A stretch of 64,000 nt of DNA, taken from Roseivirga spongicola. Its GTDB lineage: Bacteria > Bacteroidota > Bacteroidia > Cytophagales > Cyclobacteriaceae. A program made the translations under genes and the position numbers. How positions within the stretch are numbered: the first letter of the stretch is position 1; every line of letters begins with the position of its first letter. Below are positions 1,327 through 41,623 of the stretch, in pieces. Where the stretch lies: assembly GCF_001592965.1 (NCBI RefSeq), contig NZ_LRPC01000028.1, forward strand, positions 992,001-1,056,000, read 5' to 3'. A model generated the notes under the pieces. It searched no databases. It saw only the letters and a list, made by a program, of their open reading frames with translations, and was not told the origin of the DNA.

Positions 1327-1387
1327 GAGGACTAATTTAATCCGAATCAACCGACAATCAAGGATCAAATCAACAAGCCTTATATAA

Positions 1388-1424: not shown

Positions 1425-1963
1425 CTAATCGAAAACATGAACAACTCTGTTATTCACGCTTATTCTGGTGCAAAACTAACAACGTATTGTTAATTGTAAA
1501 GTATTGTTAACATATAAAATGAGCTTAATCAGTAAAAAAGAAGCACTTAGCGCATTTCATAACTCAATTCTGTCTAAAAAATTAGGGCAGCCTGCAGAAG
1601 CAGACTACCCAGACTCAACCAACTAATCAGACACTGGCCGCTTGCCGTTACCCAAACGACCTGTGAAAACTCTTTATCAACTATGTGATGTATATACGAA
1701 GCTGAGCAGGCACTTAGATTTAATGGTCTTGAATTATTTTCTTCCCCACAAGTTCCCAAAGAAAACTGACCGACAACCCTACTCCTCAAAAGAATAAACC
1801 GAACTCAACGGAAAAAACACTCATTTATTCTTAGTAAACACATAAAAACCGCCTATTATTTCAACTATAACTAATACCACCATTTTATATTTTGAATTCC
1901 AGGTATTTATCCGTAATTTCTAAGTCTAGATTAACTGAAGTAGAACTTTTAAAGACGAGCGAT
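1425..1963. other. Intergenic region between divergent genes
   Basis: About 540 bp with no convincing gene. A minus-strand frame of 71 codons at 1574-1789 has no recognisable motif. A -7 box for minus-strand transcription (TAGTTTTG, 1471-1478) is visible; the matching -33 element is poor. Nothing else recognised. Confidence 0.5.
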
Positions 1964-2422: not shown

Positions 2423-2424
2423 TC

Positions 2425-2709
2425 TTACCAAACATCTTTCCATTGAGGATGCTTCAGCAATGTTGACTTCACAAAAGGGCAAAGCGGAAGCATCTTGATA
2501 TTTTTAGACCTTACATAATCCACAGCAAACTCCACTAGCTTTAATCCTACACCTTTTCCTCTCAAGCCGTCACTAATTTCTGTATGATCTATGATTATAC
2601 GCTGATCTCCCGCCTTGGAAAAAGTCATTTCCGCAACTATTTCTTCATTCTCTTCTATATAAAAACTTCCTTTGTTTTCGTGTTCTTTCACTTGTATCTT
2701 CCAATCCAT
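2425..2709 (-). CDS. GNAT-like N-acetyltransferase, NATD1/YidJ type
   Basis: A 94-aa protein with the compact acetyltransferase domain Acetyltransf_CG. The acetyl-CoA binding loop is seen as LRGKGVGLKLVEFAVDYVR (about residues 47-65), preceded by the conserved IDHTEIS strand, and the C-terminal CPFV motif is present. The length is normal for this minimal family. Substrate is not known. Starts divergently 17 bp from the next secreted protein gene. Confidence 0.85.
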   Translation of the reverse strand: MDWKIQVKEHENKGSFYIEENEEIVAEMTFSKAGDQRIIIDHTEISDGLRGKGVGLKLVEFAVDYVRSKNIKMLPLCPFVKSTLLKHPQWKDVW

Positions 2710-2726
2710 ACGCTCCCAACTTTTGT

Positions 2727-3335
2727 ATGAAGTCTAAAGTTTATTTTTTCCGAATCTTAGTTATAGGCTTTTTCGTTCAGCTCATTTCATTCAATTATGC
2801 TGAAGGACAACGCTTAACCTACGAAGGCTTTTTGAAAGGTGAAAAAGTAGGAGAACTAGTTGCTGAGCGCGAAGTGAATGATGAAAATGTGAAAATCATT
2901 ATTCAAACTAAATTAGATGCTCAGCTAATAGTCAAAATAAAGCTGGAATTATATTCTGAGTCTACCTATATAAATCAAAGTCTATTTCAGGCCTCATCTA
3001 CTGCCAAAGTAAATGGGCAGCTAAAGTCTGATGTGCAAACAGTAAAATATGGCAACGAATATCAGGTTGAAGTTGATGGCAAGAAAAGAACGCTGGCGCA
3101 TTCAGAGCTTCTGGGTGCCGACCTATTTTACTTTGAAGAACCCAAGGGCATAAAACATGCTTATGCTCTTTCTTCAGGAGAAATGATTGAAATTACTGAA
3201 ACTGCTAACCAGACTTATTATTTCAAACGAAATGGTAAAAAAGAGTTCCATAAATACTCAGAGGGTGTTTTAGATGAATTAGAGATAAACCACAAGCTCT
3301 TCACCATTACCTTTAAACTGAAAAAGGAACTCTAA
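2727..3335 (+). CDS. Secreted protein of DUF6134 type
   Basis: A 202-aa protein with an N-terminal signal peptide (hydrophobic segment to about residue 25, ending YAEGQ). The rest is predicted beta-rich and looks like DUF6134, a Bacteroidota family with a lipocalin-like or barrel appearance, marked by the start TYEGFLKGEKVGEL. No catalytic residues can be named. It ends 9 bp before the stop of the convergent gene at 3345. The family is recognised by eye only. Confidence 0.55.
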   Translation: MKSKVYFFRILVIGFFVQLISFNYAEGQRLTYEGFLKGEKVGELVAEREVNDENVKIIIQTKLDAQLIVKIKLELYSESTYINQSLFQASSTAKVNGQLKSDVQTVKYGNEYQVEVDGKKRTLAHSELLGADLFYFEEPKGIKHAYALSSGEMIEITETANQTYYFKRNGKKEFHKYSEGVLDELEINHKLFTITFKLKKEL

Positions 3336-3344
3336 AAGATTCTT

Positions 3345-3770
3345 TTAAGAGAAGAAACTCTTCATAGGGAACACTAAAGTAAGTGAAGAGCAATCTGATA
3401 ATAGATAACCATTGAAAAGCTTCATCATAGAAGACAGGCATATCAACTCTTCATTTAATTCAGACATATTTCCCATACCGGTTAGTCTCAATACTCCTTT
3501 ACTAGCAAAAGTCGAAAAAGTGAAATCTACTTTTTCTGGCTCATCGGTTAACCCAATAAAGTTAGTCATGGTATCAATAAACAGTCTTTTATCTAGAATG
3601 ATAAGACACAAACTGCTCATCTTCTTTAAGGTAAGCTGAACATCAAGGCTTTGACCCAGCTCCTGAACAAGTGCTGCAGGATCTTCCGGAACTAAACCGC
3701 TATTCTTGTTTGAATTTGAATTAGAACGATGGTTGTCCATCGATTGAGAAAGTAGTGCAAGGTGGCTCAT
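3345..3770 (-). CDS. Hypothetical protein with Ser/Asn-rich N-terminus
   Basis: A 141-aa protein with no signal peptide and no recognised domain. Residues 12-23 are a Ser/Asn/Lys-rich stretch. The remainder mixes helix and strand and faintly recalls the four-helix/ATP-lid region of a histidine kinase lacking its catalytic boxes, but that is not enough for a call. It stands alone between convergent and upstream non-coding regions. Coding status is supported by length and clean codon use. Confidence 0.5.
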   Translation of the reverse strand: MSHLALLSQSMDNHRSNSNSNKNSGLVPEDPAALVQELGQSLDVQLTLKKMSSLCLIILDKRLFIDTMTNFIGLTDEPEKVDFTFSTFASKGVLRLTGMGNMSELNEELICLSSMMKLFNGYLLSDCSSLTLVFPMKSFFS

Positions 3771-4069
3771 GGTTTTGTTGTTTATGATTCAAACTTCACC
3801 ATAAACAGCCCGTAAATTGATCGCAAAAGACCTAAGCTCAAAGTTTAGGTAAATCACCTAACCCCTCACCTACAACAACTTAAGCTCTTTAAACCACATA
3901 AAACCGACTTTAAAAGCTCTTCATAAAGAATTTGAAAACCACTGTCCATTTATAATTAGTAATTCAATAGACAGCATGAGGTCCTTTTGCCTGCCTGAAA
4001 AAAAATTCATTTTTAACTATCTGGTCTACAGGCAGAAATAAAAAAGTGTAAATATTTTCACTGGAGGAG
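3771..4069. other. Intergenic region before tRNA-Asp
   Basis: About 300 bp without a gene. It is A+T-rich and shows no clear repeat or hairpin beyond short matches. Confidence 0.4.
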
Positions 4070-4100
4070 TTTGCAAATCAAAATGAAGCCACTACTTTTG
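4070..4100 (+). promoter_or_regulatory. Bacteroidota-type promoter of tRNA-Asp
   Basis: TTTG at 4070-4073 is separated by exactly 19 nt from TACTTTTG at 4093-4100. This is a full match to the TTTG-N19-TAnnTTTG consensus of primary-sigma promoters in Bacteroidota. Transcription would start near 4106, about 33 nt before the mature tRNA. Confidence 0.85.
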
Positions 4101-4138
4101 CATCACCTTAAACGAAAGGGACAAACAAAAAACATTTT

Positions 4139-4212
4139 GGAGCGGTAGTTCAGCTGGTTAGAATGCCTGCCTGTCACGCAGGAGGTCGCGGGTTCGAGTC
4201 CCGTCCGTTCCG
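4139..4212 (+). tRNA. tRNA-Asp (anticodon GTC)
   Basis: A 74-nt cloverleaf. The acceptor stem GGAGCGG pairs with CCGTTCC, the anticodon arm CCTGC-CTGTCAC-GCAGG gives GTC, and the T arm has the TTCGAGT loop. The discriminator base is G, typical of tRNA-Asp. CCA is not encoded. It has its own consensus promoter and a strong terminator. Confidence 0.96.
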
Positions 4213-4218
4213 CATAAA

Positions 4219-4245
4219 AGCTCAGTCATAGACTGGGCTTTTTTT
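4219..4245 (+). terminator. Rho-independent terminator of tRNA-Asp
   Basis: AGCTCAGTC and GACTGGGCT form a 9-bp stem (one G-U pair) with a 3-nt loop, followed by a run of T to 4245. Confidence 0.9.
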
Positions 4246-4263
4246 ATGCCCAAAAATCCTAAA

Positions 4264-4329
4264 GGCGGTAAGAACGCCTGTCCCGAGTTGCTCGGGAAGG
4301 TTGTAGGGTTCGAGCCCCTCCTATATCGC
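4264..4329 (+). pseudogene. tRNA-Asp-like copy with altered anticodon arm
   Basis: This stretch follows the tRNA-Asp gene closely and resembles it in order: GGCGGTA (acceptor/D side), a missing D loop, GAACGCCTG against GAATGCCTG, and then GGTTGTAGGGTTCGAGCCCC against the variable and T arm GGTCGCGGGTTCGAGTCCCG. The anticodon stem-loop is replaced by the perfect palindrome TCCCGAGTTGCTCGGGA. It cannot act as a normal tRNA. It could be a decayed duplicate or a tRNA mimic belonging to the nearby GIY-YIG remnant. Confidence 0.65.
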
Positions 4330-4443
4330 TAAAAGCCTCATGGCAATCTAAGTTTATTGTTTCTAGCTACTCTTTCTTCATTACACACTCAAAGCAAACT
4401 CTCTTAAGAATATATTATCTTAACACGAACGCCACGGACACAC

Positions 4444-4512
4444 ATGCACTATACTTATATTCTTCAAAGCAAAAAGGATTGCTCTTTCTACGTAGGATAC
4501 TCTGAGTCTTAA
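4444..4512 (+). pseudogene. GIY-YIG endonuclease, N-terminal remnant
   Basis: Twenty-two codons from the ATG at 4444 read MHYTYILQSKKD, then SFYVGYSES and a stop. This matches the start of small UvrC-like GIY-YIG nucleases (M.Y.Y(V/I)LQS..DG..Y(V/I)GYT.D). The catalytic Tyr and the GY motif are present, but the Arg, Glu and later helices are missing. A continuing frame after a shift is not convincing. It is best read as a broken gene downstream of the tRNA-like copy. Confidence 0.65.
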
Positions 4513-4572
4513 CCTAAAAAACGATTACCGCAGAGACTGGGTATGATTCCAAAAACCACCTCTAAAAGAATT

Positions 4573-4920
4573 CTAGCTCTCAACCCTAGTAAAAGCAAAC
4601 CAAGCACCTCCAATAGCTATAGATAACACATCGTACCAATCGGGAGTAAACGCTGCTGACAGCAGCGGAAAAAGCACCTCAGAAATAAAGGAGAGCATAA
4701 AAACCCAAGCTACTATTTCAAGCATTTGAATTCTCTCCCCTTCCACCCACCAACTACGTTGCCATTGGTAAATCACCAAGAATATAGCAGAGAAACAAAA
4801 CGGGTCCAGGTAATTATCGAGAAAATGGATCTTTAGCTGAAATAGGTGTTGGAGAGCTTGATGCAATCCGAACAGAATTGCTGGAACAAGAAAACTATAG
4901 TGCAGAAAATACCTGATCAA
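4573..4920 (-). CDS. Small conserved membrane protein
   Basis: A 115-aa protein with about four hydrophobic segments. The central DNYLDPFC...FLVIYQWQR motif and the C-terminal DWYDVLSIAIGGAWF are familiar from a Bacteroidota membrane family that is often labelled magnesium citrate secondary transporter; that label is weakly supported for a protein this short. It overlaps the upstream membrane gene by 4 bp (ATGA-type coupling), so the two are co-translated. Function unknown. Confidence 0.65.
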   Translation of the reverse strand: MIRYFLHYSFLVPAILFGLHQALQHLFQLKIHFLDNYLDPFCFSAIFLVIYQWQRSWWVEGERIQMLEIVAWVFMLSFISEVLFPLLSAAFTPDWYDVLSIAIGGAWFAFTRVES

Positions 4921-5129
4921 AGTGCAATAGCTAGGGCAAGAATAAAAAGCAGCAGAATAACCGGACTAGCCACAATAATAAAAACAACGCCTCCAACTGC
5001 TTTCAACAATTTCAAGAGAATTGTTCCAAAGCCATCACCTTTCCTAATAGTTATGGCACTTACCCACGACTTAAATAGGCCTTTTCCTTTATTGGTAATT
5101 GCTTTTTGTTGGTCTTTAACTGATGACAT
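4917..5129 (-). CDS. Small single-span membrane protein
   Basis: A 70-aa protein with a basic, soluble first half and one long hydrophobic segment at about residues 43-69. No family recognised. Its stop overlaps the start of the next membrane gene by 4 bp, which supports that it is real and co-expressed. Nothing can be said about its role. Confidence 0.6.
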   Translation of the reverse strand: MSSVKDQQKAITNKGKGLFKSWVSAITIRKGDGFGTILLKLLKAVGGVVFIIVASPVILLLFILALAIAL

Positions 5130-5236
5130 ATTGAATTTAAAGCGGCAAGTTTAGAGAAGCACTACCCAAAAGACAAACAGAAAACCAAATGGTTCCTAAA
5201 AAGTCAAAGTTTATCACTCTAGTGTAGTTCTATAAT

Positions 5237-5785
5237 TTACCTATTAACCCCTGTGAGCACATTCACATTAGGATTCATAGGGTTTCCAGCCATTCGTCTT
5301 AAAAGCACTATTTGACCTGTATGATAAACAGCATCTGCTATAGGGCCGTTGATCATATACCAGAGAGGCATCCCCCTAAAACTCAAGGTCTCCATATCCT
5401 TATCTGACAATTCGCGAAGCTTTAAGGAGGTAGCATAGAGAACTTTTAGCGTTTCGGCTCGCAACTCCTCAAAATCTTCTCCTGGTTCCTCAACTTCAGC
5501 CCCTTTATCTACACTTTGAAGCACTAACAGACACAGGTCATAGATATGCTTTGTGGTTTGCTGAATATCCCGACCTTCACCTTCCGGACCAAAACTTAAA
5601 TCTTCGGCCTTAAGCCCCTCTGAAGCCCAGTAGAACCTATAACCTAGCCCATCTACCATTCTGGCTATAACATTAGCTGCAGAATAATTCTCAGGCGCTT
5701 TTAAAAGCGACTTATATGGAAGTTCTTGGGCATGCAAACCACCAAAAGTGAGCATAAGAATCAATAGCAAAACAGTCCTTTTCAT
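5237..5785 (-). CDS. Secreted DinB-like protein
   Basis: A 182-aa protein with a signal peptide ending near LHAQE. The body has the DinB/YfiT four-helix character: a His in TTKHIYDL and the closing YHTGQIVLLRR, which supplies the last of the three metal-binding His seen in the family. DinB-like proteins are metal-dependent enzymes, often thiol transferases. The export signal is less common for this fold. Substrate unknown. Stands alone. Confidence 0.7.
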   Translation of the reverse strand: MKRTVLLLILMLTFGGLHAQELPYKSLLKAPENYSAANVIARMVDGLGYRFYWASEGLKAEDLSFGPEGEGRDIQQTTKHIYDLCLLVLQSVDKGAEVEEPGEDFEELRAETLKVLYATSLKLRELSDKDMETLSFRGMPLWYMINGPIADAVYHTGQIVLLRRMAGNPMNPNVNVLTGVNR

Positions 5786-5845
5786 ATCGTTTTTTGTGAT
5801 TGATTTAAAGGTAGGATTTTAATAGAAAACCTACTCCTTTACATA

Positions 5846-5876
5846 GAAAAAGCCCTTCTGATGACTCAGAAAGGCT
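5846..5876 (-). terminator. Terminator of the sigma/DUF4252/ABC operon
   Basis: On the minus strand an 11-bp stem (AGCCTTTCTGA against TCAGAAGGGCT, one mismatch) with a 4-nt loop is followed by TTTTTC. It lies 23 bp after the stop of the ABC permease. Confidence 0.75.
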
Positions 5877-5898
5877 CTTTGCAGATTGAACATAAGTA

Positions 5899-6711
5899 TT
5901 ATAAATCTCTTTTTTCTACCAGCTTTATTGTACCCCAATAGATCAGTAGCATAAAGCCTATAACAGCGCCCAATTCGGGTAAGCTAACGTAGTCTTGCAC
6001 CTCTTGAAACAAATATTTAGGGAAAGGAATATGTATAAGCTGATTTACTGCTTTAACAGGCAACAGGTAACCAATCCAGTCATAACCCAGATAAGTCATT
6101 CTTCCCCATATCACATTTTCCACCACAAGCGTCCAAAAAATGAGTACTCCCATGGCAATGATAGACTTCTTGATCAATGCCCCAACAAAGAGAGTGAAAA
6201 TCAGGAATGTAAATAACTGCAGAGCAAAAGCTAGTATAAAGTAAGCATCTTCAAATACTAGACTGAAAGTGATCTCAGAACTGTAAATGAAGCCCGTTAT
6301 TAACCCTAAAACGAACAGAAAAGCAGCTGAAACTAAACTTAAAAAGCCAGCCATCACGATTTTACTCATAATGAATTCGCGCTTACTTAAGCCGTCAATA
6401 ACATTTTGTCTGATGGTTCTGTAAGAAAATTCATTCGTAACAGAGAATATCAAGCTGAAACCTAGTAATAGCTTAAAGAATATGGCAACGCTGGTGATAT
6501 TCTGCCAGATGTCTGGAAATTCATAGAATGGAATAATTGTAGGGTCTACACCATCCAAATCGAAGTCTTCAAACTTACTTTTCAGGTATTGAAAAAACGG
6601 CATCACTCCTACACAGATAATAGCTAAAGCAATTAGGTACATACTAGCTAAAATCTTGAAAGACTTACTAGGCCTCACTTTTCTAAGCTCTATTCTTAAT
6701 AATCGCATCAT
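5899..6711 (-). CDS. ABC-2 type transporter permease
   Basis: A 270-aa inner-membrane protein with about six hydrophobic segments. It has the ABC-2 permease layout: a short cytosolic start (MMRLLRIELRKVRPSKSF), a first span, an external loop and the FSYRTIRQNVIDGLSKREFI coupling stretch at about residues 95-114. It overlaps the ATPase gene by 4 bp, so the two form one exporter. The substrate is not known; the operon context (ECF sigma, anti-sigma, DUF4252) suggests an envelope-related role. Confidence 0.88.
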   Translation of the reverse strand: MMRLLRIELRKVRPSKSFKILASMYLIALAIICVGVMPFFQYLKSKFEDFDLDGVDPTIIPFYEFPDIWQNITSVAIFFKLLLGFSLIFSVTNEFSYRTIRQNVIDGLSKREFIMSKIVMAGFLSLVSAAFLFVLGLITGFIYSSEITFSLVFEDAYFILAFALQLFTFLIFTLFVGALIKKSIIAMGVLIFWTLVVENVIWGRMTYLGYDWIGYLLPVKAVNQLIHIPFPKYLFQEVQDYVSLPELGAVIGFMLLIYWGTIKLVEKRDL

Positions 6712-7613
6712 GATTGACCTCCTTCCTGACCTTTAAGTATTTCAAGGAATTGCTTCTCTAAGGTTTTGGTTTTCACTACCAAGTGCTTAGCGGTAATTCC
6801 ATTATCGAATAAATATTTATTGACATCTGCTGCTCCGTAATTGTCTTCCATGGTGAGAATGTATTTGTCTAATTCTCGTTTAAGCTGCTTATGCATTTGA
6901 GCAGACTCTAGAACTTGTTCTAAATTCTCAGCATCTGCTTTTACCTCTACACTCAGGCTGCCTTTACCAACATCTTCTACCAAGCCATTATGGATTAGCC
7001 TTCCTCTCTGTAGAACACAGAAGTGCGTACAAACCTTTTGCACTTCATCTAGTAGGTGACTCGCAATAATGATGGTTTTACCACTATTCGCAATTTCAAT
7101 GATCAACTCTCTGATTTCGGCAATTCCTTGCGGATCTAAACCGTTTGTAGGCTCATCGAGAATCATCACTTCCGGGTCGCAAAGTAAGGCTGACGCAATG
7201 GAAAGCCTCTGTTTCATTCCTAATGAATAGGTCTTGAATTTAGAGTCTTTACGTTCTCCAAGACTTACCTGCTCAAGCACTTCATCAACTCTTGAGTATG
7301 GAACACCTTTTATATCACAGACAATCATGAGGTTTTCCACACCAGTAAGGTATGGGTAAAATATTGGGTGCTCTAGAATGGCACCAATTCGCTTTCTTGT
7401 GGCCGAACTACTCTTTTGACCAAACCACTCAAATAAACCCGAGGTAGGGTTAATTACGTCTAGAACCATTCCCAAAGTAGTGGTTTTTCCACTCCCATTA
7501 GGCCCTAAAATGCCAAACACGCTTCCTCGTTTAATATCGAGGCTAAGCCCATCTAGCGCTTTAATCTTTCCATAGTGTTTGGAAAGATTTTTAATTGATA
7601 ATACTGTATCCAA
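6708..7613 (-). CDS. ABC transporter ATP-binding protein
   Basis: A 301-aa ATPase. Walker A is GPNGSGKTT (about residues 37-45), the signature is YSLGMKQRLS, Walker B is VMILDEPTNGLDP, and the switch His is in IIASHLLDEV. The C-terminal 80 residues form the regulatory extension common in ABC-2 exporters. It partners the overlapping permease. The upstream gene is a DUF4252 protein 22 bp away, in one operon with a sigma factor. Confidence 0.92.
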   Translation of the reverse strand: MDTVLSIKNLSKHYGKIKALDGLSLDIKRGSVFGILGPNGSGKTTTLGMVLDVINPTSGLFEWFGQKSSSATRKRIGAILEHPIFYPYLTGVENLMIVCDIKGVPYSRVDEVLEQVSLGERKDSKFKTYSLGMKQRLSIASALLCDPEVMILDEPTNGLDPQGIAEIRELIIEIANSGKTIIIASHLLDEVQKVCTHFCVLQRGRLIHNGLVEDVGKGSLSVEVKADAENLEQVLESAQMHKQLKRELDKYILTMEDNYGAADVNKYLFDNGITAKHLVVKTKTLEKQFLEILKGQEGGQS

Positions 7614-7635
7614 ACCGTGTTGTTTTAAGTTGACC

Positions 7636-8169
7636 TTATCTAAATGTTTCTACCAGACTCATTCCACCCGCACTACCTACAAACTGAGATAACTCAAGAA
7701 TTTTGTTGACATCTGGATACCCTTCAATATCCAAAATGCTATAACCTGTACTACTCTGTATGAAAACAACAAACCCTTCAGGTTTATCGCCTTTCTCTTT
7801 CATCATCACAGTCATATTATTGCCTTCCATACGAGCCGTAATTAAGTCTTCATAGCCTTCTGCATGAATATCTTCTGAGAGTTGGGTAAAGAGTTGTGAT
7901 TCTGGTATTTCGGAGCCCTCGTAATTGAAAAACTTGATCTTCTCAATACCATTTATCATTTCCGAAATCTGAGGCATTTCATCTAAGTCCGATGAAAATT
8001 CTTGCTGCAAACCCATCTGAAGGCGTGCATACATTTTGAGGGTACTTTTGTAAAAGAACATCTTAAGACTGGGCTGATGTTCTTTGCGGAAGCGTTCTAC
8101 ACTCCGACTTTGACCATTAACTGAGTATGCTAGCGAACAAAAGATCACTAGTACTAAAAGCTTCTTCAT
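7636..8169 (-). CDS. DUF4252 protein, secreted
   Basis: A 177-aa protein with a signal peptide (MKKLLVLVIFCSLAYSVNGQ). It resembles its upstream neighbour in layout: a start peptide, an ISEMINGIEKIKFFNYEG-like central strand, and a C-terminal half reading MMKEKGDKPEGFVVFIQ and LDIEGYPDVNKILELS. DUF4252 has no known biochemical role; in Bacteroidota it is usually found in ECF sigma/anti-sigma operons, as here. A hairpin with a T run separates it from the first DUF4252 gene, so its expression may be lower. Confidence 0.82.
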   Translation of the reverse strand: MKKLLVLVIFCSLAYSVNGQSRSVERFRKEHQPSLKMFFYKSTLKMYARLQMGLQQEFSSDLDEMPQISEMINGIEKIKFFNYEGSEIPESQLFTQLSEDIHAEGYEDLITARMEGNNMTVMMKEKGDKPEGFVVFIQSSTGYSILDIEGYPDVNKILELSQFVGSAGGMSLVETFR

Positions 8170-8201
8170 ACATCCAAATTTTGAGCTTTTGACTAATTAT
8201 G

Positions 8202-8241
8202 TAAAAAAGTAAACTGAGGCCATCGTTTACCTCAGTTCACT
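8202..8241 (-). terminator. Intra-operon hairpin between the two DUF4252 genes
   Basis: Minus-strand arms AGTGAACTGAGG and CCTCAGTTTACT (12 bp, one mismatch) enclose a 10-nt loop and are followed by a TTTTTTAC tail. It can end or weaken transcription between the first DUF4252 gene and the rest of the operon. Confidence 0.6.
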
Positions 8242-8257
8242 TTAAATTAAGCAATTC

Positions 8258-8791
8258 TTAATTGCCTCCTTGCTGATCGAGGAACTCTAGTTCCTCAAAG
8301 CCTTGCATCCCTATTTTCTTAGAAAGCTTGTAGAGAGCATTTAAATCAATTCCGTCACCAACAATGCTGAGTAGACCAAACTCGCTATCTCCTCCCATTA
8401 CCATGAAGAGTTCGTTGATTTTATTGTTTTTCTCTTTAATCAGGAACCTAATGTCTTTATCGTCATCTCTTACAGACATTAATTCTTCAAAGCCTTTACC
8501 TTCTACCAACTTGATGGCCTCTGTATACATTTTTCTTCCATCTGCACCTTTCTCTTTTCCTAGCACCTGTACACGCTTAATTTTACCTAAAGACTCTTCA
8601 ATCATCTTTTGCTCATCAGCATCCCCGTACTCGATTTTACTTATCATCTGGAACATCTTTCCACTAAAGTTGATGTGAGTAAAAGATTCGTCTGAGGCGT
8701 ACTTACTGAAGTACTTAGATATTGCATCATCCTGAGCATTTGCACCTAAGGCAAACACCGCCATCACCATTGTTAATACTAACTTTTTCAT
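8258..8791 (-). CDS. DUF4252 protein, secreted
   Basis: The ATG at 8791 gives 177 aa and a clean signal peptide (MKKLVLTMVMAVFALGANAQ); an ATG 10 codons upstream would bury it and overlap the anti-sigma gene. The body carries KIKRVQVLGKEKG, an acidic DDDKDIRFLIKEKNN stretch and LLSIVGDGIDLNALYKLS, in the same order as the second DUF4252 protein. The pair probably arose by duplication. Likely periplasmic or outer-membrane associated; role unknown. It follows the anti-sigma gene directly. Confidence 0.85.
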   Translation of the reverse strand: MKKLVLTMVMAVFALGANAQDDAISKYFSKYASDESFTHINFSGKMFQMISKIEYGDADEQKMIEESLGKIKRVQVLGKEKGADGRKMYTEAIKLVEGKGFEELMSVRDDDKDIRFLIKEKNNKINELFMVMGGDSEFGLLSIVGDGIDLNALYKLSKKIGMQGFEELEFLDQQGGN

Positions 8792-8804
8792 ATTCGATTT
8801 TTGA

Positions 8805-9356
8805 CTAATTATTTTCAACATTCATTTCACTAAGCATATTCAACCCCTCTGAAGCCTCTCCTAACTTGGCAAAGTCTTGAAGTTCATCGGTTCCTTTGCT
8901 TAAATTGGTTAACTCGTTCAGGGTGTTCTGCCCTTTATTCATATACCTGGAAACCATGAGTAACTGCTTTTTCAATTCGGCATACGCCAACTCAGGGTCT
9001 TCAAATGTATCTTCTACTTGGTATTGCTGTTGTTGCTGGAAGTAGATAGCTCCACTTATGAACAACACCACTACCGCGGCTGCAATACTTGCATACTGTC
9101 TGAAATAGTCTTTCAGACTAATCACTTTGGCTCCTTTTTGCTCTTCTAGCTGATCTATCTGAGCGAATAATTCTGCATCGAAAGATTCGTCTAGTTCAGC
9201 ATTTTTCTTTTCATCAAAGTGTGCGAAAAGAGTCTTCTCCTCTTCTAGCTGAGCATCTTCTGAAGAAGCCAAAAGCTGTTTCAACTCTTGTTCTTCTTGC
9301 AGGCTGGTTTCAGTCTCCCAGTACTTCTTTAATAATTCTGATGTCTTAGAGTCCAT
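8805..9356 (-). CDS. Membrane anti-sigma-like protein
   Basis: A protein of about 183 aa. The acidic N-terminus (residues 1-75, with ETETSLQEEQELKQLL) lies in the cytosol. One membrane span follows at about residues 82-100 (YASIAAAVVVLFISGAIYF), then a Gln-rich stretch (QQQQQYQ) and a short outer part. There is no zinc-binding His-Cys-Cys set. Its start overlaps the end of the ECF sigma gene, the usual layout for a cognate anti-sigma factor. The assignment rests on context and topology. Confidence 0.75.
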   Translation of the reverse strand: MDSKTSELLKKYWETETSLQEEQELKQLLASSEDAQLEEEKTLFAHFDEKKNAELDESFDAELFAQIDQLEEQKGAKVISLKDYFRQYASIAAAVVVLFISGAIYFQQQQQYQVEDTFEDPELAYAELKKQLLMVSRYMNKGQNTLNELTNLSKGTDELQDFAKLGEASEGLNMLSEMNVENN

Positions 9357-9864
9357 AAGCATCTACTTTCATTAAGCTCTCTTTCAGTTTTCTTCTTGCT
9401 CTGAATAGATTAGTCTTCACCAGATTAATATCTATTCCGAGCATATCTGCAATCTCTTTGTAGGCGTAGCCCTCAATATCTCTAAGGTGCATTACCTCCC
9501 TTTGCCTATCTGGCAAGTCTTCTATGAGATCCATTATTCTTTTCATTAAATCACCTCGTTCGGTGACTACAAACGGAGTATCCCGTTCCTTTCTCGTATC
9601 CAACTCCACTTCAAACAAGTCTGTCTTCTTTACGTGCTTGCTCCTTAATTTATCGAGCGACTTGTTTCTGGTTACTTGCATGCACCAAGCTTCAAGGTTC
9701 TGAATTTGATTAAGCTCATCTCTTTTCTCCCAAACCTTTATCAGGCTTTCCTGAACAACATCTTTAGCCAATTCTTCATCCTTCACAATGTGAAGCGAGA
9801 AGCGGAAAAGCTTGTTCTTCAGGGGTAGAACCTCTTCTTTGAAGCGCGATACATCCATAATCAA
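9346..9864 (-). CDS. ECF-type RNA polymerase sigma factor
   Basis: A 172-aa sigma-70 family protein. Region 2 covers about residues 10-75 (ELAKDVVQESLIKVWEKRDE, then the core-binding WCMQVTRNKSLDKLR). Region 4 covers about 115-165 (LPDRQREVMHLRDIEGYAYKEIADML with a helix-turn-helix). It is first in the operon, followed by an anti-sigma-like protein, two DUF4252 proteins and an ABC exporter, which are probably its regulon. A second Met two codons in is an equally possible start. Confidence 0.92.
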   Translation of the reverse strand: MIMDVSRFKEEVLPLKNKLFRFSLHIVKDEELAKDVVQESLIKVWEKRDELNQIQNLEAWCMQVTRNKSLDKLRSKHVKKTDLFEVELDTRKERDTPFVVTERGDLMKRIMDLIEDLPDRQREVMHLRDIEGYAYKEIADMLGIDINLVKTNLFRARRKLKESLMKVDAYGL

Positions 9865-10308
9865 AAAGTAGACGGCAACGTGTTAAACTAAGTTAACAGG
9901 AAGGACAAAATATTTGCAGAAATTCAGTTTACACCCCTGAAAATCAAAGAATAAAAAATAAAAAATAAAAAAATAAAACAAACCACTATAGGCTCAAAGC
10001 ACCATATTTTTAGAAGCAACTGAAAGTCGCTTTGAATAGCCAACTTTGAAAATGTACGTCACGAAAGTTTCGGGATTAGATTTACGATTGACGTCAATCA
10101 AAATTTGCACATCGTAAATTCCAAGATGCTTTTTAGAATCTAAAGCGAGGAAGGTGTCTTAAAAGCGAACCGTCATTCCCGACTCCGATCGGGAATCTTC
10201 CCAAAATGGCTCCAAAGACCTATAGAGATTCCCAGTCAAGCTGGGAATGACGAAAACAGTAGCTTTTAAGACACCCTCAGTTTTAACTCCTTTTGTGACC
10301 AATAAACT
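9865..10308. other. Intergenic region holding a long inverted repeat
   Basis: About 440 bp between the sigma gene and the TPR lipoprotein gene, both on minus. A run of AAAATAAAA-like units lies at about 9949-9980. The 10151-10277 palindromic element fills the right part. No gene seen. Confidence 0.5.
10151..10277. repeat. Nested palindromic element, GTCATTCCC family
   Basis: The outer arms AAGGTGTCTTAAAAGC (10151-10166) and GCTTTTAAGACACCCT (10262-10277) match at 15 of 16 positions. Nested inside are CGTCATTCCC...CGGGAAT and ATTCCCAG...CTGGGAATGACG. The inner ATTCCC-N10-GGGAAT core resembles dispersed palindromes found in many bacteria. It lies 32 bp after the TPR gene stop and may act as its terminator. 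Confidence 0.75.
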
Positions 10309-11331
10309 TTATTGACAGTCTATAGACTTCAAAGAAGCGACTGCACTTAAATCTTCTGGAGAATTAGAAACAACATCACAGGCCTCGCTCTTCATTCCTA
10401 ACGCTTGGAGAGATAGCGCCCAATAAGCATACATGCGAGGAACATTGGCATCAATATCTGCGGCAAGTTCAAAATTGCGGATAGCAGCTTCATAGTCTTC
10501 TTTAAAATAAAAAAGCATACCTCGGTTTCTATAAGCCCAGGCATTATCTGAGGCTCCTATAATTGAAATTCTAATGTCTTTTTCGGCTTCCTCTAGCCTT
10601 GATTGATTCAGATAAATAAAGGCTCTATTACTAAGAAAGTACGGATTATTGTAGTCTAACTTCAACGCTTGATTAACCAAATCTAAAGCCAAATCGAAGT
10701 CAGGCTCAGGCCTATATGACTCAATTAGCGCTAAAGTATTGTAGATATTAGGCTCATCTGCATTGATTTCTTTTGCTTCGTTCAATCGGTTGATTGCAGT
10801 TTCAAAATCACCCATCATGAACATGCTATTGGCAATGTTGATGTAAACCTCCGTACTATCACTTCCCTTTTCTAAGGCCTGATTGAAAGAGGCAATAGAC
10901 TGAGCATGGTCTTTCATTTCATGATAAGCCAAGCCCTTGGTAAAGTAAACGTATGCGGAGTCCGGTAGCTTATACTCTAACTTGGCAAGGTCACCCAAAG
11001 CCTTTTCGTATTGACCATCGGCCAAATACGCATTAGCCCTATTTCTTAGAGCATCGGCATAACCAGTGTCTACCTGAACTAGGATATTTGAATAGTCAAT
11101 GATAGCTTCTGTATATCTTCCATCTTGATAGAGGGCCACTCCTCTATTGTTCAATGCCTCTTTGTAATCGGGTTTTATAGCTAATGCCTCAGAGTAAAAC
11201 CGAACTGCCTGTTCTAACTGACTATTATTTAAGGCTTCATTGCCTTTAATGAAAAATCGGCCTGCCTTATCCTCATCAGAATCACAGGCAAACACTAAAA
11301 GAGTAGTCAGGAGAAGGAAGTATTTTTTCAT
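10309..11331 (-). CDS. Tetratricopeptide-repeat lipoprotein
   Basis: The ATG at 11331 gives a 340-aa protein with a lipoprotein signal (LLLTTLLVFAC, Cys near 16). About eight TPR units follow, each with the W/A-x2-LG/N...Y.EA...A pattern (for example EALNNRGVALYQDGRYTEAI). TPRs mediate protein-protein contacts; as a lipoprotein it probably works at the envelope. The last residues carry a short Cys-containing tail. Stands alone, followed by the 10151-10277 palindrome. Confidence 0.88.
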   Translation of the reverse strand: MKKYFLLLTTLLVFACDSDEDKAGRFFIKGNEALNNSQLEQAVRFYSEALAIKPDYKEALNNRGVALYQDGRYTEAIIDYSNILVQVDTGYADALRNRANAYLADGQYEKALGDLAKLEYKLPDSAYVYFTKGLAYHEMKDHAQSIASFNQALEKGSDSTEVYINIANSMFMMGDFETAINRLNEAKEINADEPNIYNTLALIESYRPEPDFDLALDLVNQALKLDYNNPYFLSNRAFIYLNQSRLEEAEKDIRISIIGASDNAWAYRNRGMLFYFKEDYEAAIRNFELAADIDANVPRMYAYWALSLQALGMKSEACDVVSNSPEDLSAVASLKSIDCQ

Positions 11332-11445
11332 ATCGATATCGCTGCGCAAAGTAAGGCATCAGTAAGAGTATTAGCAACTTAAGTTGTTCTTATTACGAAG
11401 CATTATGGCTTCATTTTTGCTTATTAATCGCTTAAATTCAACATT

Positions 11446-12129
11446 ATGAAAAAGATAATCACGCTTGTACTTACCATTTGCAGTCTTCAAGTTTACAGCC
11501 AAGAAGCTGGTATCCGCATTACAAATCAATCGGACAACTTAGAATCTAAAAACCCGCTATATACCATCAATCTAGATGGCAAGACCATCTCCTTAGGAAA
11601 GTTTGGAACCCTAGAAAATATTGACCCTAATTGGATTTCAGCAATTAACGTATTAAAGGGACAATCGGCTTATTCGCTATATGGCAATAAAGGTAAAGAC
11701 GGAGTAGTGATTATCGATCTAAAGTCTTCCGATGAAAGTAGAGCGTACTTTGAAGAAGAACTGAAAAGGTATAAACATCTGACCGAGGTCAATGAGCTTC
11801 AGGATGCATCTCACACAGAAACACAGGAGAATACTATTACTCCACGCAGCACATCAGTAACCGTAAAAGGACAATTCAATTATTTAGAGAATCCTCCATT
11901 AGTTGTAGTTGAGTTAGGTGATGAGCGCCTTGAGATGCAAACCATCGGCAAGCTTAATATCATTAATACAGAGTTGATTGATGAAATAAACGTTTTAAAA
12001 GATAAAGCTTCATTAGCCCTTTATAAAGCAGAAGATAAGCCAGGTGTAGTATTGATAAAGTTGAAAGACAACAAAAAATCTGCAAAGGAATTCAAGAAAA
12101 TAAAGAAGGCCATTAAAAAGAAGAAGTAA
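11446..12129 (+). CDS. Secreted protein with two TonB-plug-like repeats
   Basis: A 227-aa protein with a signal peptide (MKKIITLVLTICSLQVYSQ). Two similar units follow: residues about 35-100 with INVLKGQSAYSLYGNKGKDG then VVIIDLK, and about 140-215 with INVLKDKASLALYKAEDKPG then VVLIKLK. Both echo the plug of SusC/RagA-type receptors (IE.I.VLKG.SA.ALYG..G..GVI.I.TK), but there is no barrel. It ends with a very Lys-rich tail. Possibly a free-standing periplasmic plug module; role unknown. Confidence 0.7.
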   Translation: MKKIITLVLTICSLQVYSQEAGIRITNQSDNLESKNPLYTINLDGKTISLGKFGTLENIDPNWISAINVLKGQSAYSLYGNKGKDGVVIIDLKSSDESRAYFEEELKRYKHLTEVNELQDASHTETQENTITPRSTSVTVKGQFNYLENPPLVVVELGDERLEMQTIGKLNIINTELIDEINVLKDKASLALYKAEDKPGVVLIKLKDNKKSAKEFKKIKKAIKKKK

Positions 12130-37841: not shown

Positions 37842-38456
37842 TTATTTATGTCTTTCTTTCAATACTGAAATGACATCATTTAAGGTGAAACCCTTAGCTT
37901 CCAAGAGCATCATATAGTGAAAAAGCAGATCGGCAGATTCATTTAGGAAGAGGTTATCATCACTATCTTTCGCTTCTATCACCACTTCTACAGCTTCCTC
38001 ACCTACCTTCTGAGCAACCTTATTAATACCTTTAGAAAACAGTCTTGCAACGTAAGATTCTTCTGGAGACTTCTGTCTTCTCTCCTTAATTACTTCTGTT
38101 AAATGACCTAAAAACTGCAGGTTATTTTCATTACTTTCTTCCCAACAAGTATCGTCTCCAAGGTGGCAAGTTGGGCCTTCCGGATTAACCTTTACTAGCA
38201 ATGCATCTTGATCACAATCGGGCGAAATAGACACAAGGTTTAAGAAGTTTTCTGAGGTCTCTCCTTTGGTCCAAAGTCGCTGTTTTGATCTACTGAAAAA
38301 AGTAACCTTTCCAGAGTCTAAAGTTTGCTCTAAAGCAGCTTCATTCATGTAGCCCAACATTAACACTTTGCCCGTATTATTGTCTTGAATTATGGCTGGT
38401 ACAAGACCATCTTCCTTGCTAAAATCTATGGCTTTGATATCTTGGATTTGTCTCAT
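37842..38456 (-). CDS. hisIE: Phosphoribosyl-AMP cyclohydrolase / phosphoribosyl-ATP pyrophosphatase
   Basis: A 204-aa bifunctional enzyme that carries out steps 2 and 3 of histidine biosynthesis. The HisI part (about 1-110) shows [30 protein letters not shown] and the metal-site Cys residues in DQDALLVKV...[11 protein letters not shown]. The HisE part (about 115-204) shows [21 protein letters not shown] and [11 protein letters not shown]. Overlaps hisF by 4 bp. Last gene of the phhA-hisHAFIE operon. Confidence 0.96.
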
Positions 38457-39214
38457 TTTTCTACCCTCACCGGGATGTTATTTTCTTTTAAAAAACTCTT
38501 TAAATCTGGCACTGAAATTTCCTTAAAATGGAAGATGCTTGCAGCCAAAGCAGCGTCTGCATTTCCATCAGTAAAGGTATCCACAAAGTGGTTCATTTGC
38601 CCCGCCCCACCCGATGCTATTACTGGTATAGATAAGGCCTTCGAAATCTCTGAAGTGAGCTCATTTGCGAAGCCCGCTTTGGTTCCATCATGGTCCATTG
38701 AGGTGAGCAAAATCTCTCCTGCCCCACGCTGCTCAACCTCCTTAACCCATGGTATAGTTCTAAGCTCTGTAGGAGTTCTTCCGCCTCTCACATGGACAAT
38801 ATGTTCTCCCTCTACAAAGCGTGTGTCGATAGCCACTACCACACACTGACTCCCAAACTCCAAGGCCAGTTCATTAATTAAATCTGGTCGCTTTACAGCT
38901 GATGAATTGATGGAAATTTTATCGGCTCCAGCATTCAATAAAGCCGACACATCTTCTATGGAGCTTATACCTCCACCCACTGTAAAAGGAATATTGATTT
39001 CTGCGGCTACTCTCCTTACTAGCTCCACTAGTGTTTTTCTCTTTTCAACTGTGGCAGTAATATCAAGAAACACCAACTCATCTGCCCCTTCAGCGGCATA
39101 GGTAGCAGCCAACTCCACTGGGTCACCAGCATCGCGCAAGCCCACAAAGTTGACTCCCTTCACTGTTCTGCCGTCTTTAATATCTAGGCAGGGAATAATT
39201 CGTTTAGTTAACAT
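38453..39214 (-). CDS. hisF: Imidazole glycerol phosphate synthase, cyclase subunit
   Basis: A 253-aa (beta-alpha)8 barrel that makes imidazole glycerol phosphate and AICAR, using ammonia from HisH. The catalytic Asp are in [11 protein letters not shown] (about 10-20) and VVVAIDTRF (about 130). The phosphate sites GGGISS and [11 protein letters not shown] are present. Lies 46 bp after hisA and overlaps hisIE by 4 bp. Confidence 0.97.
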
Positions 39215-39260: not shown

Positions 39261-39977
39261 TCATTGAAAACTCGCTAGCTCTTCAAGCGTGATTCTTCCC
39301 TCATAATACGCCTTACCTACAATTGTAGCGTAGACTCCAATGTCTTTGAGTTCTTTCAAATCGGCTAGTTCTGCAACTCCTCCGCTCGCTATCAGCTTTA
39401 AACCTGAAAACTCCTTCAAAATCTTCTGATATAAATCTACTGAAGGCCCTTGTAGCATGCCGTCTTTGCTAACATCGGTGCAAATGCAATAAGTTACTCC
39501 TTGAGCCATATAGCGCTCCAGAAAAGGAAATAAATCTAGTCCAGAGTCTTCTTGCCAGCCGCTTATGGCAATCTTCTCGTTGATTACATCGGCTCCAAGA
39601 ATCACTTTTTCTGCACCGAACTCCTTCAGCCATGAGTAGACCAACTCAGGATTTTTAGCCGCAATGCTACCAGCCGTAATTTGCTGAGCACCAGCATTAA
39701 GCACTGCCTGAAGCGACTCGCTTGACTTTACTCCTCCACCAAAATCTACTTTCAGATTGGTATTCGAGGTGATAGATTGTAAAACGTCTAAATTTTGTGG
39801 TTTTTGAGCCTTAGCTCCATCTAGGTCTACTAGGTGTAAATTGGTAATACCTGCCTCTTCAAAGGTCTTAGCCACTTCAACTGGGCTATCAGAATATTCT
39901 TTTTTCTGATTGTAATCTCCTTTAGTCAGGCGAACCGCCTTTCCGGAAATCAGGTCTATTGCTGGAATTATCTTCAT
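39261..39977 (-). CDS. hisA: Phosphoribosylformimino-AICAR isomerase
   Basis: The ATG at 39977 gives 238 aa, starting MKIIPAIDLISGKAVRL as usual for HisA; upstream in-frame codons belong to the repeat at 39990-40082. It is a (beta-alpha)8 barrel with the catalytic Asp in AIDLISGK and CTDVSKDGML, and phosphate loops DFGGGVKS and IASGGVAEL. It opens the ribose of ProFAR to give PRFAR for HisHF. Separated from hisH by a palindromic repeat. Confidence 0.96.
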   Translation of the reverse strand: MKIIPAIDLISGKAVRLTKGDYNQKKEYSDSPVEVAKTFEEAGITNLHLVDLDGAKAQKPQNLDVLQSITSNTNLKVDFGGGVKSSESLQAVLNAGAQQITAGSIAAKNPELVYSWLKEFGAEKVILGADVINEKIAISGWQEDSGLDLFPFLERYMAQGVTYCICTDVSKDGMLQGPSVDLYQKILKEFSGLKLIASGGVAELADLKELKDIGVYATIVGKAYYEGRITLEELASFQ

Positions 39978-39989
39978 TTTATCGTGTTT

Positions 39990-40082
39990 CGTCATTGCGA
40001 GGGAGTCCCGAATCATCGGGACAACCGCGGCAATCTCCTTATCGAGGAGATGGGACTGCTTCGTTCCTCGCAGTGACGTTCT
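39990..40082. repeat. GTCATTGCGAG-family palindrome between hisH and hisA
   Basis: A 93-nt element from CGTCATTGCGAGGGAG to CCTCGCAGTGACGTT. An inner hairpin GTCCCGAATCATCGGGAC and a CAATCTCC...GGAGATG arm are nested in it. It fills the spacer from 2 nt after the hisH stop to 12 nt before the hisA start. Close relatives are at 51208-51300 and 52812-52920. Confidence 0.9.
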
Positions 40083-40084
40083 AT

Positions 40085-40666
40085 TTACAGTTTCAAAAAA
40101 TTCGAAAGAATCTGCTCCCCTACCTTTCCACTCTTTTCAGGGTGTGCCTGTAAAGCGTAGAAATTATCTTTCTGTAAAGCGGCAGAGAATCGGTTGACAT
40201 ACTCGGTTTCGGCTACTGTGTATTCGCTCAATTCCGCGTAATAACTATGCACATAATACACATAAGGCTCTTCTGGCAAGTCAGCGAACAAAGGAGAATT
40301 CATATTCTCTAAGTTGTTCCAGCCCATTTGAGGAACTTTCAACTTAGGTTCGAATTTTCTTACCTGAACATCGAATATACCAAGGCAATCGGCATCATTC
40401 TCTTCAGAATGCTTACACATTAACTGAAGGCCAAGACAAACACCGAAAACAGGCTGTTTTAGCGATTCTATTACCTGATCTAAACCTTGTTTTCGCAAGA
40501 AATTCATTGCAGTACTGGCTTCCCCAACTCCAGGGAAAATTACTTTATCTGCCGATCTAATAATATCAGGATCGGCAGATAGTATTGGCTCTACTCCAAG
40601 TCTTTGCAAGGCATAGGTTACCGACTGAACATTGCCGGCATTATAGTTTACAATAACTACACTCAT
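40085..40666 (-). CDS. hisH: Imidazole glycerol phosphate synthase, glutaminase subunit
   Basis: A 193-aa class I glutamine amidotransferase. The nucleophile elbow is GVCLGLQ with Cys near 77; the His and Glu of the triad are in the C-terminal AHPEKSG. It forms PGVGEA near residue 45 and YYVHSYY in the second half. It delivers ammonia to HisF. It starts 30 bp after the phhA stop with no terminator between, so the two are co-transcribed. Confidence 0.97.
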   Translation of the reverse strand: MSVVIVNYNAGNVQSVTYALQRLGVEPILSADPDIIRSADKVIFPGVGEASTAMNFLRKQGLDQVIESLKQPVFGVCLGLQLMCKHSEENDADCLGIFDVQVRKFEPKLKVPQMGWNNLENMNSPLFADLPEEPYVYYVHSYYAELSEYTVAETEYVNRFSAALQKDNFYALQAHPEKSGKVGEQILSNFLKL

Positions 40667-40696: not shown

Positions 40697-41431
40697 TTAT
40701 GCCAAAGATGCCTTTTCTTTTAACCTCTTTTCAATCTTCTCTTTAATTTCAGGAATAGACTCGTAAAGCTGCTCGTAAGAGTCGATGATGAAGTAGTTCT
40801 CTTGCATTTTATCCTTTCTGTAAGGTGTATCTAAAATGTGGTCTACATCGTACTCGAAATGATTCGGCTCATTTGAAAGCGAGAATTTGGTTTCTCCTGA
40901 AGAAGATAGAATACCTGCACCATAAATTCTGAGTCCCGACTCTTCTCTTATTAGGCCGAATTCAATGGTGTACCAGTAAATTCTTGAAAGCAAATGAATA
41001 GCCCATTCATCTTCGATCCACTCATGGCCAAATTGGCTTATGGCCTGAAGAAAATCGACAAACGCCTGGTTGGTTAACAATGGAATGTGAGCAAACACAT
41101 CATGGAACATATCTGGTTCTTCCAGGTAGTCCAGTTGACTCATTTTACGAACCCATGTAGTTGCTGGAAACTTCTTATTGGCCATTAGTTCGAAGAATAA
41201 TCCATCTTCAACAATTCCAGGCACAGCGTAAATTTCCCATCCGGTAAGCTTCTTCAAAATCTTGTTAGTGTCTTCAAAATTAGGAATAGCCTCACCAGTG
41301 AAGTTAATCTTCTCTAAACCAGTTAAAAACTCTTTTGTGGCCGCTTGTGGCAGTTGGGGAAATTGCCTGTCGAAAAGGATTTTCCAAACCTGCTGATCCT
41401 CTGCTGTGTAATTCTCGTAAATCTGTTTCAT
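40697..41431 (-). CDS. phhA: Phenylalanine 4-monooxygenase
   Basis: The ATG at 41431 gives a 244-aa monodomain phenylalanine hydroxylase, which makes tyrosine from phenylalanine with tetrahydropterin, iron and oxygen. The iron ligands are seen as H110 and H115 (MFHDVFAHIPLL) and E157 (YTIEFGL). PDMFHDVFAH and the pterin-side WVRKMSQLDYLEEPD are typical. No regulatory ACT domain. It is first in an operon with hisHAFIE and lies behind a Tyr/His leader peptide and terminator. Confidence 0.96.
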   Translation of the reverse strand: MKQIYENYTAEDQQVWKILFDRQFPQLPQAATKEFLTGLEKINFTGEAIPNFEDTNKILKKLTGWEIYAVPGIVEDGLFFELMANKKFPATTWVRKMSQLDYLEEPDMFHDVFAHIPLLTNQAFVDFLQAISQFGHEWIEDEWAIHLLSRIYWYTIEFGLIREESGLRIYGAGILSSSGETKFSLSNEPNHFEYDVDHILDTPYRKDKMQENYFIIDSYEQLYESIPEIKEKIEKRLKEKASLA

Positions 41432-41456: not shown

Positions 41457-41487
41457 AAAAAAACCCGGCTCTTGCGGAACCGGGTTT
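41457..41487 (-). terminator. Attenuator terminator before phhA
   Basis: On the minus strand AAACCCGG and CCGGGTTT form an 8-bp stem with an 11-nt loop, followed by TTTTTTT. It lies 25 bp upstream of the phhA start and 25 bp after the leader-peptide stop. The loop side GTTCCGCA is perfectly complementary to TGCGGAAC inside the leader ORF (41531-41538), giving a candidate antiterminator. Confidence 0.9.
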
Positions 41488-41512
41488 GTATATCTTCAAT
41501 TAGTTAAATCAA

Positions 41513-41587
41513 TTAAAACATATGCCTACCGTTCCGCACTTGCGTAGCATGGTAATAGTGGTAGTAATATGCGTTGTTCATCAACAT
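41513..41587 (-). CDS. phhA-his operon leader peptide, Tyr/His-rich
   Basis: A 24-codon ORF from ATG at 41587 (or an in-frame ATG at 41581). Codons 4-13 read NNAYYYHYYH, so five Tyr and two His codons lie in a run of seven; a third His codon comes near the end (GRHMF, then TAA). It sits directly behind a near-consensus promoter and just before a terminator, the classic layout of ribosome-mediated attenuation. Ribosome stalling at 41549-41569 would leave 41531-41538 free to form the antiterminator. The operon makes tyrosine and histidine, which matches the codons. Confidence 0.88.
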   Translation of the reverse strand: MLMNNAYYYHYYHATQVRNGRHMF

Positions 41588-41592
41588 GGCTA

Positions 41593-41623
41593 CAAAGGTA
41601 AGACCTCTATTTTCAGGCGCAAG
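41593..41623 (-). promoter_or_regulatory. Promoter of the phhA-hisHAFIE operon
   Basis: On the minus strand CTTG (41620-41623, one change from TTTG) and TACCTTTG (41593-41600) are separated by 19 nt. The -7 box ends 5 nt before the first leader ATG, so the leader mRNA is leaderless or nearly so. Confidence 0.8.

Follow-up and report, generated by a model that had tools for sequence, protein, structure and literature searches.

A leader peptide with tyrosine and histidine codons precedes the phhA-hisHAFIE operon of Roseivirga spongicola and very likely senses both amino acids

Results

A probable attenuator lies upstream of phhA-hisHAFIE

We found a candidate attenuator in front of the phhA-hisHAFIE operon of Roseivirga spongicola, and it is very likely that this element controls transcription through the translating ribosome and works as an OR gate for tyrosine and histidine. 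The window, as we call the whole 64,000-nucleotide stretch of DNA that was analysed, contains a promoter-like motif, a 24-codon ORF and a terminator, followed by phhA, hisH, hisA, hisF and hisIE, all on the minus strand from 41622 to 37842 (Table 1). The original prediction had described a promoter, an ORF encoding NNAYYYHYYH and a terminator in the order of an attenuator; we recovered all three parts in that order, and the terminator, given there as 8 bp, proved to be a hairpin of 11 pairs with a 5-nt loop. Each of the five gene products scored above its own NCBIfam cut-off in a profile search. The genome (4.48 Mb, 99.98% complete) contains a single phhA, and the closest named PhhA is that of a Cytophagia MAG (96% identity), with Roseivirga next. 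By computation, the region upstream of phhA combines a leader ORF with clustered control codons, an intrinsic terminator and an antiterminator that is mutually exclusive with it.

Table 1. Coordinates of the attenuator, the operon and the trp leader in the window
Feature	Coordinates	Strand	Evidence
Promoter-like motif: TTG (41622-41620), 19 nt, TACCTTTG (41600-41593)	41593..41622	-	sequence; Bacteroidetes-type consensus
Leader peptide ORF MLMNNAYYYHYYHATQVRNGRHMF, 24 codons	41513..41587	-	ORF list; similar leaders in relatives
Control codons Y7 Y8 Y9 H10 Y11 Y12 H13 (run YYYHYYH)	41549..41569	-	sequence
Antiterminator 5′ segment GTGCGGAACGGTA, includes TGCGGAAC	41527..41539	-	predicted duplex with terminator 5′ arm and loop
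GTTCCGCA, antiterminator partner in terminator 5′ arm and loop	41473..41480	-	complementarity
Intrinsic terminator: 11-bp hairpin (41487-41461), 5-nt loop, T run to 41457	41457..41487	-	
phhA, phenylalanine 4-monooxygenase	40697..41431	-	PF00351 3.7e-46; TIGR01267 and NF008877 over cut-off
hisH	40085..40666	-	TIGR01855 over cut-off
hisA (listed ORF; a later Met may be the true start)	39261..40016	-	TIGR00007 over cut-off
hisF	38453..39214	-	TIGR00735 over cut-off
hisIE, 4-nt overlap with hisF	37842..38456	-	NF002747 over cut-off
trp leader MLSTKRNNAWWWHVTESR and terminator before trpE	56652-56596	-	sequence

The arrangement of TTG, a 19-nt spacer and TACCTTTG upstream of the leader ORF is one that we take to be a Bacteroidetes-type promoter motif. 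A promoter scan based on the E. coli consensus returned no promoter at the leader, and the counts from that scan for the region were at the level of shuffled sequence (promoters, 9 vs. 8.9; terminators, 4 vs. 3.9). Across 79 leaders from the host's family, the -7 motif TAnnTTTG is present in exact form and ends 4-9 nt 5′ of the leader ATG in 43, with a distance of 5 nt in 25. Because the motif ends so close to the ATG, the mRNAs of the family leaders are probably leaderless or nearly so.

The leader RNA is predicted to fold more stably than shuffled sequences (z = -3.0; 3 of 200 shuffles equal it). No Rfam family reached its gathering cut-off when covariance models were compared with the leader; sub-threshold scores were obtained for Thr_leader (24 bits, cut-off 55, E = 0.025) and Leu_leader (20.2 bits, cut-off 50, E = 0.088), and neither the Rfam His and Trp leader models nor any Rfam T-box riboswitch model matched at E up to 1.

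The leader is predicted to pair with its own terminator

The complementarity between leader and terminator reported in the original prediction holds, as TGCGGAAC (41538-41531), which lies in the leader just 3′ of the control codons, is complementary throughout to GTTCCGCA (41480-41473). Counted from the first base of H13, the last control codon, the longer segment GTGCGGAACGGTA begins 12 nt further on, and its predicted duplex with the 5′ arm and loop of the terminator has an energy of -16.1 kcal/mol (3% of shuffles as good). A terminator was located for 76 of 80 family leaders. At these 76 loci, the antiterminator pairing had a median z of -2.2 relative to shuffles, with 62% of loci at or below the 5% level and 38% above it. 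From the first base of the last Tyr or His codon to the start of the pairing, the median distance is 12 nt (his genes behind phhA) or 14 nt (no his genes). Leaders paired more strongly with their own terminator (mean, -13.6 kcal/mol) than with dissimilar terminators taken from elsewhere in the set (mean, -9.9 kcal/mol; Wilcoxon, 2e-13), and at 34 of the 76 loci no more than 5% of the foreign terminators paired as well as the resident one. This preference for the resident terminator is what co-variation predicts.

Assuming that the ribosome covers 12 nt beyond the first base of its A-site codon (cf. the accessible text of PMC4833913), we folded the window RNA as it stands before the 3′ arm of the terminator. 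With the ribosome at Y7, Y9, H10, Y12 or H13, the predicted energy was -20.7 to -21.1 kcal/mol; with the ribosome further on, it was -16.0 kcal/mol at A14, -4.0 at V17, -2.5 at G20 and 0 at the stop codon. By these energies, the antiterminator is still intact with the ribosome at the last control codon and at no tested position beyond it. Full-length folds retained the terminator wherever the ribosome was placed among the tested stalls; any antitermination would therefore have to act kinetically.

From these features we infer the following mechanism. RNA polymerase would start just 5′ of the leader ATG, with a ribosome following it. When charged tRNA-Tyr and tRNA-His are both ample, the ribosome would reach the stop codon and cover GTGCGGAACGGTA, which would allow the terminator to form and keep phhA-hisHAFIE off. 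When either tRNA is scarce, the ribosome would stall within YYYHYYH, the segment 3′ of the run would pair with the 5′ arm of the terminator, and the operon would be transcribed. A leader with two kinds of control codon would be the simplest control for a mixed operon in which phhA answers a shortage of tyrosine and hisHAFIE a shortage of histidine.

Leader His codons accompany his genes behind phhA

A search of the family with PF00351 matched 192 of 295 genomes. We assembled 228 phhA loci (80 named, 147 from other family genomes and the window's own), a set that is weighted toward close relatives and best matches. Of these, 167 were distinct by phhA DNA and 165 were examined, L052 and L079 being excluded as loci that begin within phhA. 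A locus was classified as his-linked when hisH lies within 700 nt after phhA. The original prediction had called the linkage of phhA to his genes unusual; it is in fact common, with hisH in this position at 99 of the 165 distinct loci. Seven of the 165 were unclassified and stand outside the two-class counts.

The leader scan treated Tyr and His symmetrically and called a leader when a short ORF upstream of phhA had at least 5 Tyr+His per 12 residues. It was positive at 59 of 99 loci with hisH behind phhA, at 21 of 59 loci without hisH and at 1 of 7 unclassified loci, against a background of 1.15% among 3220 dinucleotide shuffles and a single hit among 161 opposite strands. When at least 7 Tyr+His per 12 residues were required, the background fell to 0.03% of the 3220 shuffles and to none of the 161 opposite strands.

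The scan left 40 of the 99 his-linked loci without a leader at threshold, and promoters are not always recognisable from sequence; both points would suit a reading in which the shared leader is accidental and hisHAFIE is transcribed mainly from another, unseen promoter. We consider this reading very improbable. The gap between phhA and hisH in the window is 30 nt, TAnnTTTG occurs on the operon strand only at 41600 and at 41282 (the latter within phhA) and at no position between the genes, and hisF overlaps hisIE; moreover, an unseen promoter would leave the His codons unexplained. Two loci, L063 and L198, are leader-like and fall just below threshold. Inspection by eye of 11 of the 40 sub-threshold loci revealed no shared alternative, and one of the stretches inspected, that of L057, is mostly coding sequence.

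Comparison of the leaders themselves strongly supports the proposal that a single leader senses both amino acids, as the His codons track the his genes. We observed at least two His in the 12-residue window in 54 of 59 leaders with his genes vs. 1 of 21 without (Fisher, 3e-13, a value that overstates independence because the rows are related and the contrasts few). The original prediction had asked whether relatives keep His codons only where his genes follow; the His codons are usually there when these genes follow and usually missing when they do not. At least one His was present in 59 of 59 leaders with his genes vs. 10 of 21 without, and 6 of these 10 are Marivirga leaders (MNFTHNTYYYYYQ) in which the His precedes the run. 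When only the Tyr/His run is considered, a His was found in 58 of 59 leaders with his genes vs. 3 of 21 without (L028, L172, L142). L142, which has a TTG start, lacks a terminator and is probably spurious, is included in the Fisher tables and omitted from the run composition and from the 95-row tree described below. In the runs of the other 79 leaders, the ratio of His to Tyr is 154:200 with his genes vs. 2:109 without. With 16 order-wide rows added, chosen by eye among 69 loci, and hisH alone counted as his, the run contains His in 60 of 64 leaders with hisH vs. 3 of 31 without.

The runs differ accordingly in composition. Roseivirga leaders with his genes include YYYHYYH, YHYHYYH and HHYYYYY, and an Algoriphagus leader with his genes reads TYVHHSYH; leaders without his genes are mostly pure Tyr, such as KYYYYYYYR (Fulvivirga sediminis, L016) and TYYYYYF (L013). 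The well-supported Marivirga clade contains both states, namely HYYYYYH (L023) and HNHYYYYH (L027) with his genes and YYYYY in eight rows without.

The original prediction had named leaders that keep His codons without his genes as evidence against it. Such leaders were encountered, with His in the run, at the three family loci given above (3 of 21, one of them the probably spurious L142) and at L368, outside the family. In L031 the his genes are present and His lies outside the run, and L351, L352 and L379 have a Tyr-only run with hisH alone behind phhA (hisA and hisF not in the stretch examined). Two TTG-start candidates with Tyr/His mixes and no his genes behind them, L336 and L386, were set aside as spurious.

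Three observations would fit an attenuator that senses Tyr only: His is retained without his genes in L028, L172 and L368, the his state is clustered on the PhhA tree, and 17 of the genus's 18 trp leaders have a His after the Trp run. In such an attenuator the His codons would serve the pairing or spacing of the RNA, or would have arisen from Tyr codons by drift (TAY to CAY) and persisted through common descent. We regard such a Tyr-only leader as unlikely. The number and place of His residues vary among leaders (YYYHYYH, YHYHYYH, HHYYYYY, HYYYYYH, HHSYHH), and the runs use CAT (106) as well as CAC (48), which fits selection on the amino acid. In addition, leaders that lack his genes could undergo this one-base change just as readily, yet His makes up 2 of their 111 Tyr/His residues, and the Anditalea leader L073, which has his genes behind it, has a run of four His with a single Tyr ahead of the run.

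Asn, Tyr and His tRNAs share Q34, and the Asn, Tyr and His codons of the NNAYYYHYYH segment in the window leader are all NAY codons, as they would be if the leader sensed the queuosine modification of tRNA. We find this extremely improbable, as the Tyr/His runs of 79 leaders contain 1 Asn and 0 Asp, and sensing of queuosine would not account for the way in which His codons follow the his genes.

The link expected of a leader that senses both Tyr and His was also followed on PhhA trees. With 80 family rows, the tree shows a clustered his state that changes five times, with two changes forced by well-supported branches. On a tree of 95 rows, with the 16 order-wide rows added and L142 removed, there are eight changes of his state, three of them supported. 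The base labels for the 95-row tree set L324, L325 and L347 (short downstream stretch) and L351, L352 and L379 (hisH alone) to "no his", and L330, in which hisH is seen and the stretch is too short to show hisA, to "his". In random independent pairs on this tree, His codons were concordant with the his genes in 2.6 of 3 on average and never opposite, in a test that cannot reach 0.05 by sign test with only three well-supported contrasts. As labelling of the hisH-alone rows as "no his" favours the link between codon and gene, the pair test was repeated with other labels: with L351, L352 and L379 counted as "his", 2.1 of 3 were concordant and 0.2 opposite, and without all seven of the rows named the values were 2.4 of 3 and 0, again with too few contrasts for a sign test. 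Across the family, the leader sequences show a strong tie between His codons and his genes.

The fused operon and the supply of histidine and tyrosine

In the R. spongicola genome, hisG and hisD are located on another contig, with hisC- and hisB-like ORFs (identified by eye) behind them, and the hisG leader MTVAHFHAHHFHHLS is rich in His and free of Tyr. Judged by its gene content, the fused operon would contain the late his steps only. The original prediction that starvation for either amino acid opens both pathways is therefore to be narrowed: it would stand for phhA and the late his steps, and it does not extend to hisG and hisD, which lie elsewhere behind a Tyr-free leader and would not answer to a lack of tyrosine. 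A lack of histidine, by contrast, should open the two his blocks together. Since HisG catalyses the first step, opening of the fused operon by Tyr shortage would add little flux toward histidine, so the OR gate would be cheap. A His-rich leader precedes hisG in 19 of 19 genomes of the genus. As a separate observation, FHH, with a Phe codon before the last His pair, occurs in 17 of the 19 hisG leaders of the genus (L112, L283-L300).

HisH was found in 20 of 21 searched genomes that lack the phhA-his fusion. Among 19 non-fusion hisH regions, 11 have hisG upstream of hisH on the same strand; HisA and HisF lie behind in all 11 and HisIE in 10 of 11, and a His-rich leader, such as NKYHHHHHHFN, stands before hisG in 10 of 11. 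In seven regions of the genus Marivirga, hisHAFIE lies elsewhere and no convincing leader was found.

No match to tyrA/prephenate dehydrogenase (PF02153) was found in the 99.98% complete R. spongicola genome, in which prephenate dehydratase is present. PF02153 was without a match in 12 of the 19 genomes of the genus, including this one, and matched in 7, and controls matched in 14 of 14. The missing match suggests that PhhA is probably the route to tyrosine in R. spongicola, unless a diverged enzyme was missed. Tyrosine would then hinge on the oxygen-using PhhA in those members of the genus without PF02153.

Codons of trp leaders and operon content

The trp genes of the window, which are preceded by their own leader and terminator (Table 1), contain no his genes. 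Of the 18 trp leaders in the genus, 17 have a His and 1 has a Tyr directly after WWW. We had considered His in the trp leader as a sign of his linkage and rejected it as uninformative, as both linked and unlinked genomes have it after WWW. Given this conserved His, a single His in a leader proves little and may be kept for another reason.

In family genomes, phhA often lies behind aroF and trp genes. We defined phhA as trp-linked when it shares the strand of trpE and is found no more than 9.5 kb downstream of that gene, and counted genomes for which both the trpE and the phhA places were listed. A Tyr touches the Trp run in 30 of 35 trp-linked genomes vs. 1 of 13 unlinked genomes with both genes on one contig, or 4 of 28 when 15 other-contig cases are added to the unlinked genomes and 7 of 34 when six omitted genomes (trp leader present, PF00351 unmatched or phhA place not shown) are added as well, all of these being counts in which places and leader fragments were transcribed by hand and related genomes were counted separately (L253-L270, L404-L460). 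Against the rule, G009, G016 and G004 are without a phhA match, yet a Tyr touches the Trp run (L405, L408, L424). Among the linked exceptions, G142, G048 and G149 have their own Tyr or Tyr/His phhA leader (L197/L016, L090/L031, L163/L004), for G042 no phhA leader of its own was found, and the fifth is G036. G178 and G255 are trp-linked and have both a Tyr in the trp leader and a separate phhA leader.

In G023 (L301, about 1000-11700), trpB- and trpA-like ORFs (identified by eye) and aroF run into hisHAFIE, and it is the one genome encountered with this arrangement. Tandem leaders precede trpE in this genome, the nearer one being MKAFTHNPQHAWWWHWHQEKSG (HAWWWHWHQ) and the one further upstream MLRTTHTNAWWHTDKICN, and its phhA leader (L106) is a pure Tyr run.

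We tentatively propose that Cytophagales leaders are rewritten codon by codon when operons fuse or split, in which case control codons would report gene content. The same proposal, and with it the same reserve, takes in the possibility that phhA brings Tyr and hisHAFIE brings His wherever they land, with Trp and His combined in G023. Few independent events stand behind a rule by which leader codons follow the operon. If true, it would amount to a general OR logic that can evolve to cover as many as three amino acids.

Discussion

We conclude that the element upstream of phhA-hisHAFIE is most likely a classical attenuator with two unrelated inputs, which predicts a two-input OR gate made of codons alone. 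Some leaders have the second set of codons and others lack it, even among members of one genus, which would provide a natural experiment in which an RNA regulator has been retuned after the joining of pathways. Leader peptides may also come to indicate which genes belong to an operon.

Leader-peptide attenuators are reported in Actinobacteria (PMC1262725). The accessible text of PMC2965389 states that, to its authors' knowledge, leader peptides had previously been shown only in Proteobacteria and Actinobacteria, and it adds the hisS/hisZ leader of Firmicutes; words beginning with "Bacteroid-" are absent from that text. Like the leaders described here, the hisS/hisZ leader belongs to amino-acid genes in another phylum, but as described there it concerns His alone. 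The occurrence of his suboperons with "alien" genes in the Bacteroidota superphylum has also been reported, in a paper whose main text mentions no phenylalanine, phhA or leader, the alien-gene table being in its supplement (PMC8305728). Putative attenuators were proposed before tyrA operons, one of them in Bacteroides thetaiotaomicron (PMC1173090); these are likewise aromatic operons, but they concern tyrA rather than phhA, and the word hisHAF is absent from the accessible text. To that one putative Bacteroides case, the present analysis adds a large, comparatively supported set of attenuators in Bacteroidota. The gene named hisHb in the tyrA study is presumably an aminotransferase. Among the literature matches listed, mostly without subscription papers and seen as accessible text, no paper deals with a Tyr/His leader or with joint control of phhA and his genes.

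Classical leader-peptide attenuators are those of the his, trp, thr, ilv and leu operons of enterobacteria, among which the thr leader contains Thr and Ile codons and the ilv leader contains Ile, Val and Leu codons, in each case for amino acids of connected pathways. The phhA-hisHAFIE leader resembles these attenuators in having a short ORF with control codons and an overlap between antiterminator and terminator, such that the position of the ribosome would decide between them. Unlike the thr and ilv leaders, it combines codons for Tyr and His, which are products of unrelated pathways, and its second set of codons varies with the content of the operon.
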